A stretch of DNA of 64,000 nt. Origin: Microbacterium limosum. GTDB lineage: Bacteria > Actinomycetota > Actinomycetes > Actinomycetales > Microbacteriaceae. The notes beneath the pieces are model-generated. The model made no database searches and had not been told where the DNA came from. It saw nothing but the letters and a program-made list of their open reading frames with translations. This document shows positions 21,962 to 27,895 of this stretch, one piece after another. Positions within the stretch are counted from its first letter, which is position 1, and each line of letters starts with the position of its first letter. Location: contig NZ_CP137080.1 in the NCBI RefSeq assembly GCF_036324365.1, forward strand, positions 1,240,001 through 1,304,000. The letters run 5' to 3'. The position numbers were made by a program, and so were the translations under genes.

Positions 21962-22098
21962 CTAGATCGTGCCCTCGCTGGTTGGTGAGGAGGCCGTGAT
22001 GGCTGCTGGGATGACGTGCTTCGAGCACTGAACCATTAGGACGCTGCGAGCTTTCTCCGGGACGAGCAATGATCAGGTTCGCGAAGGGAGCGGGGACG
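21962..22098 (+). ncRNA. Candidate bridge (seek) RNA region of the IS110 element
   Basis: Recently described IS110 elements express a structured RNA from the non-coding left end that pairs with target and donor DNA and guides the recombinase. Here the sequence upstream of the transposase has several stems, including GTGCT-TCG-AGCAC at 22016-22028 and CCTCGC/GTGAGG around 21973-21990. A perfect 12-base palindrome, TCTAGGCCTAGA, sits at the proposed left edge (21955-21966). Location and structure fit, but the boundaries and function are inferred. Confidence 0.4.
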
Positions 22099-23322
22099 AT
22101 GTTGTTCCTCGGTGATGACTGGGCGGAAGCCCACCACGACATCGAACTGCAGGACGAGCAGGGCGCAGTGCTGGTTCGGCGTCGACTGCCGGAGGGGGTG
22201 ACGGGGTTGGCGCGGTTGCACGCGCTGATCGCGGATCATCTCGACGACGCCGACGATCCGAGCGTGGTGTTCGTGGGGATCGAGACGGATCGGGGCGGGT
22301 GGGTGCAGGCTCTGATCGCGGCCGGGTACTCGGTGTATCCGATCAACCCGCAGCAGTCGGCCCGGTACCGTCAGCGGCACTCGACGTCGGGCGCGAAGAG
22401 CGACCCCGGGGATGCGCACGTGCTCGCGGAGATCGTCCGCACCGACCGTGATCATCACCGGCCCGCGACCGGCGACAGCGACCTCGCCGAGGCCGTGAAG
22501 GTGCTGGCGCGGACCCATCAGACGATGATCTGGTCGAAGCAGCGGCAGGCCAATCAGCTGCGGTCGATGCTGCGAGAGTTCTACCCTGCCGCGTTGACCG
22601 CGTTCAGCGACGACCTCGCCGGACGAGACGCCCTCGCCGTCCTCGCCGCCGCGCCGACCCCGGCCGCCGGACGGGCACTGACCCGGACCCGGCTGGTCTC
22701 AGTGCTGCGCCGGGCGGGACGGCGACGCAACCTCGAACACCGCGCGATCGAGATCCTCACCGCTCTCCGGTCCGAGCAGCTCGAACTGTCCGGACCAGTC
22801 GCGGCCGCCTACGGCGCCGGGGTCACCGCGATCGCGACAGTGCTGACCGCGATGACCGGTCAGATCGCTGCGCTGGAAGCCGAGGTCGAGTCGTGTTTTG
22901 GCCGGCACCCGGACGCTGAGATCATCACCAGCCAACCCGGCCTGGGGAAGGTCCTCGGCGCGAGGGTGCTCGCCGAGTTCGGAGACGACCCCGACCGCTT
23001 CGCCGACGCGAAAGCGCGCCGGAACTACGCCGGCACCAGCCCCATCACCCGCGCGTCCGGCACCCGACGGGTCGTGCTCGCCCGCTACGCCCGCAACAGA
23101 CGCCTCGCAGACACCATGCACCAACAGGCGTTCTGCGCACTCAGCACGTCACCCGGCGCTCGAGCGTTCTACGACGCCCACCGCGCCGCGGGAAACACCC
23201 ACCACGCTGCGCTACGAGCCCTCTCGAACCGGCTCGTCGGGATCCTCGACGGCTGCCTCCGCCACCACACCCGCTACGACGAAACCATCGCCTGGGCACA
23301 CCGCCACACCCTCGCCGCTTGA
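22099..23322 (+). CDS. IS110-family transposase (DEDD recombinase)
   Basis: A 407-residue recombinase. The N-terminal RuvC-like DEDD domain shows the first Asp pair in FLGDDWAEAHHD, the Glu in VGIETDRGG and the later KSDPGDAHVLAEI. The C-terminal domain has GKVLGARVLAEFGD and YAGTSPITRASG, which carries the conserved Ser region of IS110 enzymes, then HHAALRALSNRLVGI. ATG 22099 was preferred over ATG 22069 because GGGAGCGGGG precedes it and the family starts here. The gene appears intact, so the element may still be mobile. Confidence 0.9.
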   Translation: MLFLGDDWAEAHHDIELQDEQGAVLVRRRLPEGVTGLARLHALIADHLDDADDPSVVFVGIETDRGGWVQALIAAGYSVYPINPQQSARYRQRHSTSGAKSDPGDAHVLAEIVRTDRDHHRPATGDSDLAEAVKVLARTHQTMIWSKQRQANQLRSMLREFYPAALTAFSDDLAGRDALAVLAAAPTPAAGRALTRTRLVSVLRRAGRRRNLEHRAIEILTALRSEQLELSGPVAAAYGAGVTAIATVLTAMTGQIAALEAEVESCFGRHPDAEIITSQPGLGKVLGARVLAEFGDDPDRFADAKARRNYAGTSPITRASGTRRVVLARYARNRRLADTMHQQAFCALSTSPGARAFYDAHRAAGNTHHAALRALSNRLVGILDGCLRHHTRYDETIAWAHRHTLAA

Positions 23323-24572: not shown

Positions 24573-25874
24573 GTGACCCCTTCCCGGACGACCACCAAGG
24601 AAGCCGTCGAAGAGACCGACGAGGCGACCACGCCCGTGCCCGCCGTGACGAAGCGCAAGGCGGCCGCCAAGAAGCCCGCCGCCAAGAAGGCCGCTCCGGC
24701 CAAGAAGACGGCGCCGAAGGATTCCGAGGAGGACGTCGAGGACGACGTCGACGGCGAAGAGATCTCGGTCGAGGAGTCGGCGGACGACTCCGACGACTCC
24801 GACGACTCGCCGGCGACGCCCGCCGCCGACTCGGACGACGACGACGAAGAGGACGCCGCGCCCAAGAAGGAGGCGACCGAGTCGCTGCCGACGGGCGCCA
24901 TCGTCATCTCCTCGAGCGACGAGGACGACGTCCCCGTGTACTCGACCACGATCACCGGCGCGACGGCCGACCCCGTCAAGGACTACCTGAAGCAGATCGG
25001 CAAGGTCCCGCTGCTGAACGCGGCGGAGGAGGTCGAGCTCGCGATGCGCATCGAGGCGGGCCTGTTCGCCGAGGAGAAGCTGTCTCAGCTGAGCGACGCC
25101 GAGAAGCGCACCCAGCTGGGCCGCGACCTCACCTGGGTCGCGAAGGACGGCCAGCGAGCCAAGTCGCACCTGCTGGGGGCGAACCTGCGCCTCGTCGTCT
25201 CCCTCGCCAAGCGCTACACCGGGCGCGGCATGCAGTTCCTGGATCTGATCCAGGAGGGCAACCTCGGTCTCATCCGAGCGGTCGAGAAGTTCGACTACAC
25301 GAAGGGCTTCAAGTTCTCCACGTACGCCACGTGGTGGATCCGTCAGGCGATCACGCGCGCCATGGCCGACCAGGCCCGCACGATCCGCATCCCCGTCCAC
25401 ATGGTCGAGGTCATCAACAAGCTCGCTCGCGTGCAGCGTCAGATGCTGCAGGACCTGGGCCGCGAGCCCACGCCCGAAGAGCTCAGCCGCGAGCTGGACA
25501 TGACGCCCGAGAAGGTCATCGAGGTGCAGAAGTACGGCCGCGAGCCGATCTCGCTGCACACCCCCCTCGGCGAAGACGGCGACAGCGAGTTCGGCGACCT
25601 CATCGAGGACACCGAGGCGGTCGTGCCGGCGGATGCCGTGGGCTTCACGATGCTGCAGCGCCAGCTCGAGTCGCTCCTGGACTCGCTCAGCGAGCGCGAG
25701 GCGGGCGTCATCCGCATGCGCTTCGGCCTCGGCGACGGTCAGCCGAAGACGCTCGACCAGATCGGTGACACGTTCGGCGTGACGCGCGAGCGCATCCGCC
25801 AGATCGAGTCAAAGACGATGGCCAAGCTGCGGCACCCGTCGCGCTCCCAGTCGCTGCGCGACTACCTGGAGTAA
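24573..25874 (+). CDS. sigA: Primary RNA polymerase sigma factor
   Basis: A 433-residue sigma-70 group 1 factor that directs RNA polymerase to housekeeping promoters. The first ~125 residues are low-complexity: a Lys/Ala-rich stretch ([13 protein letters not shown]) and then Asp/Glu/Ser-rich, as in HrdB-type factors. Region 1.2 starts at about residue 130 ([16 protein letters not shown]). Region 2 follows with [17 protein letters not shown] and [20 protein letters not shown], then region 3 and region 4 with [13 protein letters not shown] and [15 protein letters not shown]. The gene ends three bases before murT with no terminator, suggesting cotranscription. Confidence 0.96.
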
Positions 25875-25877
25875 GCG

Positions 25878-27152
25878 GTGCTCGACGCCATCGGCGTGGC
25901 CGCGGGCCGCGCCGTGCAAGCGGTGCTGCGCGCGCGGGGCGGCAAGGGCAGCGGCGGGCCGGGGCTGGTGACGAACCGGATCGCCCCCGGCCTGCTGCCG
26001 CGCGTGCTGGCCTCGTTCCCGGGCGGCCTCGTCGTCGTCAGCGGGACGGCGGGAAAGTCGACCACGACCAAGATGGTCACGGCCGTCCTGCGCGCGCACG
26101 GGTTGCGTGTCTTCACGAACTCGTCCACCGCCAACCTCCCACAGGGCATCACGTCGGCCGTGCTCGACGAAGGCGACTGGCGCGGGCGCGTCGACGCCGA
26201 CATCGCCGTGCTCGAGATGGACGAGGCGTTCGGAGCGAAGATCGCGGCCATGTACCGGGCCCGGGTCGTGACGCTCACGAACATCAATCTCGACGACATC
26301 GCGCGCTTCGAATCGTACGAGCGCGTCATCCGCCTGCTCACCACGATCGCGCAGCGGGCGGACGGGGCCGTCGTCCTCAACGCGGACGATGCGTCGCTGA
26401 GCAGGGTGGCCGCGAGCGTGCGCGATACGGGGCGGACGGTACGACGGTTCGGCGTGAGCACCCAGGTGATGTCGGACCAGCCGTACGGGCTCGGGTACGT
26501 TCGCACCGAGCCGGGGCGGATGGCCCCGGCTGACGGCACCGTCGTCGAGAGCATCGATGGCCGCTCGGCGGTCCTGGCGGATGCCGCGGGGTCGTTCCCG
26601 CTCACGCTTCCCGCGCGCGGAGCACACTTCGCCGTCGACGCCGCCGCGGCGGTCGAGACGGCACGAGAGGTGCTCGGCGCCCGGTTCGACCGCGATCTGG
26701 CCGCCCGCACGCTCAGTGAGCTGAAGCCGGTGTTCGGGCGCGGCGAGACGGTGGAGATCCAGGGCCAGCGGATCGAGTGCGTGCTCGTGCAGAACACGGC
26801 GAGCTTCCAGCTCAACATCGACGCGCTCGGCAGCGCGAGGGAGCGGCTCTTCGTCGGCATCGGCGATGAGGAGGAGGACACCTCCTGGCTCTGGACGGTG
26901 CACACCGGTTCGCTCGGCCGCGTAGACATCGTGGGCGGCCCGAAGGCGGATGCGATGGCCAACCGGCTGGCATACGACGGCGTCGTCTTCGACGCCGTCG
27001 ACACCGACCTCATCCGCGCCTTCGAGGCGTTCCTCGCGCTTCCGGCCCCGGCGCACGGCGACAAGACGGTCGTCTTCACCTCGCGCAGCATGCGGAAGAT
27101 CCGCGGACACTACGGACTGACGACGCAGGAAGTGAGGTCGGGGTCCCGATGA
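25878..27152 (+). CDS. murT: MurT-like Mur ligase, lacking the zinc ribbon
   Basis: A 424-residue homologue of MurT, the ATP-dependent subunit of lipid II isoglutaminyl synthase, which activates the D-Glu alpha-carboxyl of lipid II. The ATP motif GTAGKSTTTK is at residues 56-65, and the C-terminal DUF1727 domain runs from about residue 290. Characterised MurT proteins carry a Cys4 zinc ribbon in the central domain. Here only one cysteine exists in the whole protein (Cys301) and the region around residues 190-225 is short. The GTG start at 25878 lies three bases after sigA, and the stop overlaps gatD (ATGA). See the GatD entry for the linked oddity. Confidence 0.9.
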   Translation: MLDAIGVAAGRAVQAVLRARGGKGSGGPGLVTNRIAPGLLPRVLASFPGGLVVVSGTAGKSTTTKMVTAVLRAHGLRVFTNSSTANLPQGITSAVLDEGDWRGRVDADIAVLEMDEAFGAKIAAMYRARVVTLTNINLDDIARFESYERVIRLLTTIAQRADGAVVLNADDASLSRVAASVRDTGRTVRRFGVSTQVMSDQPYGLGYVRTEPGRMAPADGTVVESIDGRSAVLADAAGSFPLTLPARGAHFAVDAAAAVETAREVLGARFDRDLAARTLSELKPVFGRGETVEIQGQRIECVLVQNTASFQLNIDALGSARERLFVGIGDEEEDTSWLWTVHTGSLGRVDIVGGPKADAMANRLAYDGVVFDAVDTDLIRAFEAFLALPAPAHGDKTVVFTSRSMRKIRGHYGLTTQEVRSGSR

Positions 27153-27895
27153 GCCCATTGACCGTCGTCTCGCTGTTCCCGGAGCGGCTGAACATCCACG
27201 GCGACGCCGAGAACGCTGCCGTCCTGGTGCGGCGCGCATCGTGGCGAGGCCTCGACGCATCGCTCAGGGTCATCGCCGACCCGGCGGACGCAGCGGATGT
27301 CGACGCCGACCTCGTGACGATCGGCGCGGGGTTCGATGCCGACGCGCCCGAGATCCTCGACGGGCTGCGCGGCATGGGTCCCGTGCTGCGACGGTGGCGC
27401 GATGCCGGAGTGCCGCTTCTCGCCGTCGGGCTCGGGTGGGACATGCTCTCCACCTCCGTGGAGCTGGAATCCGGCGCGGTACCCGGGATGGGACTCTTCC
27501 CGGGGCGGTCGGTCGCCTCGGCGCGACGGGTGGGAACCATCGCGGTCGACAGCGACCTCGGCCCCCTGACCGGCTACGAATACCACCTCCGCGACTACAT
27601 CCTCGCGGGCGACGAGCGTCCGCTCGGAACCGTCCGCCGAGGCACGGGCAACCTCGCGGGCGCGGGTGAGAACGGTGCGGAGGGCAGCACGATCGGCTCG
27701 CTCGTGGGCACGGGTCTGCGCGGCCCCGTCCTCGCCCGCAATCCCGGGCTCGCGGACGACCTGCTCGACAAGGCCCTCGTCCGCCGAGGCGAGTCGGTGG
27801 CCGCGGCAGGCGCTGCCGTGGATGCCGCGCAGGCCCTGGCGGATCTCCACGCGCTCCGAGCGAACGAGATCGTCCGGCGCAACCTCGGCCTGTAG
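27149..27895 (+). CDS. gatD: GatD-like amidotransferase subunit with missing catalytic Cys and His
   Basis: A 248-residue class I glutamine amidotransferase-like protein, the usual partner of MurT. It aligns well with known GatD: LNIHGDAENAAVL, TIGAGFDADAPE and the C-terminal GPVLARNPGLADDLL. In S. aureus GatD the nucleophile is Cys94 in ICGGYQFLG and the general base is His189 in TYLHGP. Here the equivalent stretches read AVGLGWDML (Gly94) and GTGLRGP (Arg191). Glutamine hydrolysis by the standard mechanism is therefore not expected. The gene is otherwise intact and translationally coupled to murT, which argues for a retained, changed role rather than decay. Confidence 0.9.
   Translation: MSPLTVVSLFPERLNIHGDAENAAVLVRRASWRGLDASLRVIADPADAADVDADLVTIGAGFDADAPEILDGLRGMGPVLRRWRDAGVPLLAVGLGWDMLSTSVELESGAVPGMGLFPGRSVASARRVGTIAVDSDLGPLTGYEYHLRDYILAGDERPLGTVRRGTGNLAGAGENGAEGSTIGSLVGTGLRGPVLARNPGLADDLLDKALVRRGESVAAAGAAVDAAQALADLHALRANEIVRRNLGL

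Follow-up and report, generated by a model that had tools for sequence, protein, structure and literature searches.

Directly behind sigA, a 64,000-nucleotide stretch of Microbacterium limosum DNA (NCBI RefSeq assembly GCF_036324365.1, contig NZ_CP137080.1, positions 1,240,001 to 1,304,000; hereafter the window) carries two overlapping genes for a MurT-like ligase and a GatD-like subunit. In this pair and its sigA-linked relatives in the Microbacteriaceae, alignments indicate that the nucleophilic Cys94 of GatD and a gate Arg of MurT were lost, that the ligase core and the glutamine-capturing Arg were kept, and that the base pocket was changed. The clade has probably changed function, its MurT now being a glutamine-independent ligase and its GatD a partner devoid of glutaminase activity; its activity, substrate and nucleophile are what we infer from sequence. 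MurT/GatD has attracted study as an essential drug target, and homology-based annotation makes it a glutamine-dependent isoglutaminyl synthase; databases list the whole clade under that name (the Agromyces proteins are an example) despite the missing glutaminase nucleophile. The pair without Cys94, called Cys-less below, is not the oddity of one strain and holds well beyond one genome. No description of a Cys-less GatD in Microbacteriaceae, and no genetic account of D-Glu carboxyl substitution in group B walls, turned up among the papers listed in searches of the open-licence PMC literature.

Residues of GatD and MurT

Residues were counted in 89 sigA-linked clade rows, the window included, and in 40 canonical rows. 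Coordinates are positions in the window, and all features named are on the forward strand. As the initial annotation of the window had it, the GatD-like protein has Gly94 (codon at 27428..27430) and Arg191 (27719..27721) at the places of Staphylococcus aureus Cys94 and His189; it contains no Cys at all. Across the clade, residue 94 is Gly in 71 rows, Ala in 12, Ser in 3, Asn in 2 and Thr in 1, and Cys in none. Searches of protein databases gave Cys94 in 0/51 matches of the window GatD (its own match counted) and in 0/120 matches of a Cys-less profile (best 120 of 685), and both Cys94 and His189 in 120/120 matches of a profile made from sequences that have the Cys (best 120 of 7935). The loss of the catalytic His stands for the window but not as a general trait: Arg191 is a detail of the lineage, since 52/89 clade rows keep His189. 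Gln98 is retained in 23/89 clade rows versus 40/40 canonical rows, and 78/89 clade rows retain the GFENH-motif Glu. Arg126 (27524..27526), equivalent to the Arg128 with which S. aureus GatD is reported to capture glutamine (PMC5871853), is kept in 83/89.

In MurT, the residues kept in 89/89 clade rows are Lys60 of the P-loop GTAGKS (26043..26060); Asn86 (26133..26135), equivalent to the acceptor-carboxylate Asn85 of Streptococcus pneumoniae; Glu113 (26214..26216), equivalent to the Mg residue Glu108 of S. aureus; Asp334 (26877..26879), equivalent to S. aureus Asp349; and the Arg140 equivalent. The gate Arg, Arg135 of S. pneumoniae MurT, is present in 0/89 clade rows versus 40/40 canonical rows, and Leu138 (26289..26291) takes its place beside the putative ammonia gate in the window. 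As described for S. pneumoniae MurT, Arg135 flanks, and in one model closes, an opening that faces GatD, and with its neighbours it borders the proposed ammonia path (PMC6085368). Two Asn of the same protein, Asn270 and Asn273, are described as probable adenine contacts (PMC6085368); Phe251 and Asp254 (26628..26639) occupy their places in the window. The first of these positions is Tyr or Phe in 84/89 clade rows versus Asn in 34/40 canonical rows, and the second is Asp in 87/89 versus Asn in 39/40. Numbering was matched by spacing for both Asn and via the spacing N-x-x-R-D-Q-x-D-R for Arg135. S. aureus MurT N267Y is reported as inactive (PMC6113224), and on an inferred numbering match N267 is probably the second adenine-contacting position.

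The window MurT has a single Cys (Cys301) and lacks the Cys4 zinc ribbon, as annotated at the outset. The proposal that absence of the ribbon is informative was dropped, and ribbon loss was rejected as a sign of new function: it is also missing in 12/14 canonical MurTs of the family, and published accounts describe the ribbon as not general in MurT (PMC6085368, PMC6113224).

The locus in Microbacterium limosum

The sigA open reading frame (ORF), encoding the principal sigma factor, spans 24573..25874, and the slot directly downstream is filled by the MurT-like ligase gene (25878..27152, GTG start, 424 amino acids) and the gene for the GatD-like subunit without glutaminase residues (27149..27895, 248 amino acids). 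Both ORFs are intact and overlap by 4 nt, in agreement with the earlier description of an intact, overlapping pair behind sigA, and both proteins were identified by ORF, profile match and predicted structure. Pfam scores lie above the cut-offs for Mur_ligase_M (50.5 vs 24) and GATase_3 (47.6 vs 27), and MurT_C is a bare pass (25.9 vs 25); the NCBIfam equivalog cut-offs are missed by far (best 84 vs 800 and 61 vs 450 bits). The genome, a single contig of 2.79 Mb, has no MurT_C match besides the window's MurT, and no second standard pair was found by this search; such a pair would have counted against the initial annotation. The AlphaFold2 model of the window MurT (mean predicted local distance difference test score, pLDDT, 90.6) has 6gs2 MurT as its best PDB match by E-value, with a template modelling (TM) score of 0.48-0.52, and gives a TM score of 0.64-0.67 with Streptococcus pyogenes MurT 9sq9. 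For the window GatD (mean pLDDT 95.3), the best PDB matches are the GatD chains of 6gs2, 9sqj and 5n9m. Against Microbacterium sp. BR1, the ratio of nonsynonymous to synonymous substitution rates (dN/dS) is 0.26 for MurT (dS 0.74) and 0.34 for GatD (dS 1.1); the genes are constrained, under purifying selection.

Distribution, synteny and phylogeny

The family was sampled as 120 evenly drawn Microbacteriaceae genomes, some of them incomplete assemblies (G022 is 87% complete); 100 loci were read, then 20 from other families, then eight more. A GatD profile matched 95/120 genomes and Pfam MurT_C matched 84/120, so annotation with Pfam only misses part of the clade. The sigA-linked Cys-less pair of the window's kind (the main pair) occurs alone in 75/120 genomes and together with a canonical pair in 2/120 (G054 and G066). 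Position 94, read in 73 of those 77 genomes, is never Cys; G027, G038, G081 and G095 were assigned to the main kind by the MurT behind sigA. A canonical pair only is present in 12/120 genomes, another Cys-less pair in the sigA slot in 7/120, odd pairs away from sigA in 2/120 (G005 and G053), and no pair in 22/120. sigA was sought in 17 of these 22 pairless genomes and located in 16, in every case without MurT or GatD behind it, although one of the 16 stretches ends 186 bases past sigA; the remaining five pairless genomes are non-matches of the GatD profile search. All 12 genomes with only a canonical pair lack any pair in the 1.5 kb that follow sigA.

Placement behind sigA is close to constant in the clade. 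Of the 88 clade loci other than the window, 86 have SigA and MurT on one strand (the remaining two stretches contain no sigA), and the distance from the SigA stop to the start of the MurT domain is at most 168 nt in 83/88. A maximum-likelihood tree built from 115 MurT rows places 69 sigA-linked Cys-less rows on one side of one branch with a Shimodaira-Hasegawa-like approximate likelihood ratio test (SH-aLRT) value of 100, and the canonical Microbacteriaceae rows fall among those of other families. Strains labelled Microbacterium are spread over three or more parts of the clade (the window and BR1; RU33B; and the group of M. ulmi and M. esteraromaticum), and refilling or sorting of the sigA slot seems to have happened more than once. 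Among the named owners of Cys-less pairs are Leifsonia, Agromyces, Cryobacterium tepidiphilum and M. lacus. A reduced family genome of 0.93 Mb still retains a sigA-linked Cys-less pair (L081, G015:C1), and one second copy of the pair, in G113, has a stop codon.

In other families, about 200 matches were met in all, and Cys94 is kept in 26 of the 27 loci read there. Outside the order, one family has a locus (L234, G421:C166:1-2300) with a Cys4 motif in MurT and Asp at the nucleophile place of GatD, which is another loss of Cys94. The operon has been called universal in Actinobacteria (PMC6085368); this does not hold for 20/26 named Microbacterium genomes searched, which are without MurT.

A second Cys-less pair in the sigA slot

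Seven genomes (G009, G029, G032, G107, G111, G114 and G118) carry a different Cys-less pair in the same slot, referred to here as the alternate pair. Like the main pair, the alternate pair (for example L087 and L090, with a relative, L258, in Vescimonas) has no Cys94 and, in these seven genomes, sits behind sigA. Unlike the main pair, it has a zinc ribbon in MurT (one of the four Cys is lost in G009 and G029), Asn at the Asp349 position and a separate branch in the tree, and its MurT (L090) is 26% identical to that of the window. The nucleophile region of its GatD reads THNALEVL or nearly so. Each of three genera (g38, g43 and g49) has one genome with the main pair and another with the alternate pair. 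The alternation of two distant Cys-less pairs in one slot suggests one shared role, and an alternate pair in that slot is as expected if a glutaminase-free pair is selected there. A separately branching, zinc-ribbon, Cys-less pair that shares the sigA slot in 7/120 genomes is new.

Relatives of the alternate pair were also seen elsewhere. One Cys-less relative is in Vescimonas (Clostridia; L258). A plasmid search, in which five of 15 records were read, a Leifsonia plasmid among them, gave an alternate-type Cys-less pair in Vescimonas and canonical pairs in Ruminococcus albus, Pontibacillus and Monoglobus. In a Canibacter-like genome, an alternate-like Cys-less pair with 41% GC (L238, G005:C25:73800-77500) is probably an island recently transferred from a low-GC donor, because the contig is otherwise 51-55% GC with genes that look actinobacterial by eye; contamination was rejected on the same grounds. 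No relative of the L238 MurT was found among the viral contigs searched. A third kind of MurT/GatD, with a zinc ribbon, without Cys94, away from sigA and on a very long branch, is present in G053 (L240, G053:C1:608500-616500).

Main and canonical pairs occur together in G054 and G066 and in the records of Leifsonia shinshuensis, and the two kinds thus need not be interchangeable. In L. shinshuensis, the Cys-less proteins P0212 and P0215 are encoded on 3.8- and 4.2-Mb contigs, and plasmid NZ_CP043642.1 of strain INR9 bears a canonical Cys94 pair at 103937-105918 (L262) that adjoins a predicted VanY-like M15 peptidase; the records of the chromosome-sized contigs and of the plasmid share a species and may come from different strains.

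Proposed function and alternatives

The reference structures for the MurT/GatD isoglutaminyl synthase are those of S. aureus (6gs2, 5n9m and 7q8e), S. pneumoniae (6fqb) and S. pyogenes (9sq9). The clade shares with this enzyme the adjacent genes, the folds, the P-loop, the Mg-binding Glu, the acceptor Asn, Asp349 and the capturing Arg. It differs in having no nucleophilic Cys, a variable His, no gate Arg and no zinc ribbon, and also in the replaced Asn of the adenine pocket and the fixed place behind sigA. In S. aureus, neither MurT nor GatD is reported to work alone (PMC3266927), and GatD C94G loses glutamine use and keeps ammonia-dependent amidation of lipid II at pH 8.5 (PMC3266927, Münch et al.), so a Cys-less GatD can serve a working ligase. 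That mutant carries exactly the Cys94-to-Gly change of the window, still needs its partner and depends on ammonia at pH 8.5; it differs as a laboratory change in an otherwise wild-type pair, whereas in the natural clade additional changes have become fixed. Carbamoyl phosphate synthetase I of ureotelic animals has a class I glutaminase domain without the Cys and lives on free ammonia; its synthetase is unrelated, and it serves as a precedent only.

In the proposed mechanism, MurT would phosphorylate a carboxyl of a lipid-linked peptidoglycan precursor, as is thought for canonical MurT; GatD would hydrolyse no glutamine and would act as the obligatory partner of MurT; and the acyl phosphate would be attacked by a nitrogen nucleophile not made from glutamine. 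The initial proposal that ammonia production was lost and that GatD is a structural or substrate-binding subunit is a good reading of these data, with the loss of Cys94 fixed and the ligase core kept. The nucleophile may, tentatively, be a small amine or amino acid, bound intact in what was the glutamine pocket and passed on to MurT through a gate opened by loss of the Arg. A more detailed version is rather doubtful as a whole. It makes the pair an aminoacyl ligase of lipid-linked peptidoglycan in which the glutamine site became an amino-acid donor site, with an opened gate and an altered nucleotide pocket that perhaps does not prefer ATP. Its function would be kept at the sigA slot, and the ligase would apparently have arisen from MurT/GatD twice, on the second occasion in a lineage that carries the zinc ribbon and has Clostridia relatives.

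Several observations weigh against a glutamine-independent ligase. Four alternate rows in the slot keep the gate Arg, a fifth alternate row (G053) has Lys there, and all five have Asn at the Asp349 position, so the two Cys-less kinds lack one common signature. The kept capturing Arg and GFENH Glu could be structural, and the changed adenine Asn could mean that nucleotide binding is altered or lost, though the phosphate site is intact. With 22/120 genomes pairless, the product can be dispensed with or replaced. The double sets of G054 and G066 could be contamination, since these draft assemblies consist of 190 and 90 contigs. The MurT tree was made by a quick maximum-likelihood method, with no bootstrap and no approximately unbiased (AU) test, and the ligase activity is a prediction from the alignments.

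Free ammonia is the somewhat less probable nucleophile. The pair would then amidate D-Glu in an ammonia-dependent way and form D-isoglutamine from free NH3, like S. aureus C94G at pH 8.5. That mutant is a biochemical precedent (PMC3266927), the Asp349 and acceptor Asn equivalents are retained, and D-Glu amidation is reported among the muropeptides of Clavibacter michiganensis, a family member of type B2gamma (PMC9603630). The ammonia route leaves unexplained a capturing Arg in 83/89 rows beside Cys in 0/89, the lost gate Arg and the changed base pocket, and the reported S. aureus MurT/GatD assays show no use of NH3 at pH 7.5 (PMC3266927). Retention of the capturing Arg and loss of the gate Arg tilt the reading slightly towards an intact amine, and this evidence is not decisive.

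A role other than that of a ligase, as a regulatory or binding complex or with another wall polymer or peptide as its target, is unlikely. It would fit the patchy presence of the pair and the replacement of both adenine-contacting Asn in nearly all rows, but the phosphate, Mg and acceptor residues are invariant, and a mere scaffold would not need them.

Group B cross-bridge and decay

The initial annotation had the pair attach the bridge residue of group B walls to the alpha-carboxyl of D-Glu, and this is now improbable. In its favour, the clade is confined, among the loci read, to a family described as group B (PMC10978784), the other-family loci having Cys94 in all cases except one that lies on another branch, and the lost ammonia production and opened gate fit an amine nucleophile. 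The distribution of MurT within Microbacterium stands against it. Named loci were collected by the gene upstream of sigA (the best 80 of at least 566, biased to close relatives); 78 of the 80 are labelled Microbacterium, and the pair is behind sigA in 14, two of them from one strain. A whole-genome MurT search of 26 named Microbacterium genomes gave the pair in six (at least 496 bits), and in the other 20 a MurT of either kind was absent, the best being partial matches of at most 52 bits that look like the usual Mur ligases. Among these 20 are M. radiodurans, M. galbinum and M. sufflavum, which are recorded with D-ornithine walls (PMC10757982). Species that have the pair include M. esteraromaticum, M. 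arabinogalactanolyticum and M. aoyamense, and M. testaceum and M. lacticum, like M. galbinum, are without it. As to Lys versus Orn wall types within Microbacterium, the pairless species include recorded D-Orn ones; the wall types read were those of three of the 20 pairless genomes' species, with the five named pair-bearing species and BR1 outside the comparison.

The remainder of the family agrees with this, with 22/120 genomes without a pair and 12 with only a canonical one. Canonical pairs in the family, among the matches listed, belong to Leucobacter, Lysinibacter and Canibacter. The Leucobacter pair is a canonical Cys94/His189 pair, yet a published table gives type B as the Leucobacter cross-link in each of six columns (PMC4804768). 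The pair is hardly a general bridge ligase, because it is absent from such group B species or replaced in them by a glutaminase pair. In a narrower form, it could still be one of several bridge or substituent ligases. Group B walls also occur in Bacillota, in Erysipelothrix, Eubacterium and Acetobacterium. The data remove the pair as the general answer for the group B bridge, and it stands as a candidate for some wall modification.

Decay to an inactive MurT/GatD remnant, which the lost catalytic residues, the many genomes without the genes and the stop codon in the G113 second copy might suggest, is rejected on the dN/dS values of 0.26 and 0.34, and the intact overlapping genes, the conserved specific replacement residues and the conserved place in 86/88 loci make it highly improbable.

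Neighbouring genes

On the 3' side of the GatD-like gene is a convergent gene of the gyrase/topoisomerase B type (named by eye). Upstream of the sigA region, at 22069-23322, a 417-amino-acid ORF resembles, by eye, an IS110-type transposase.

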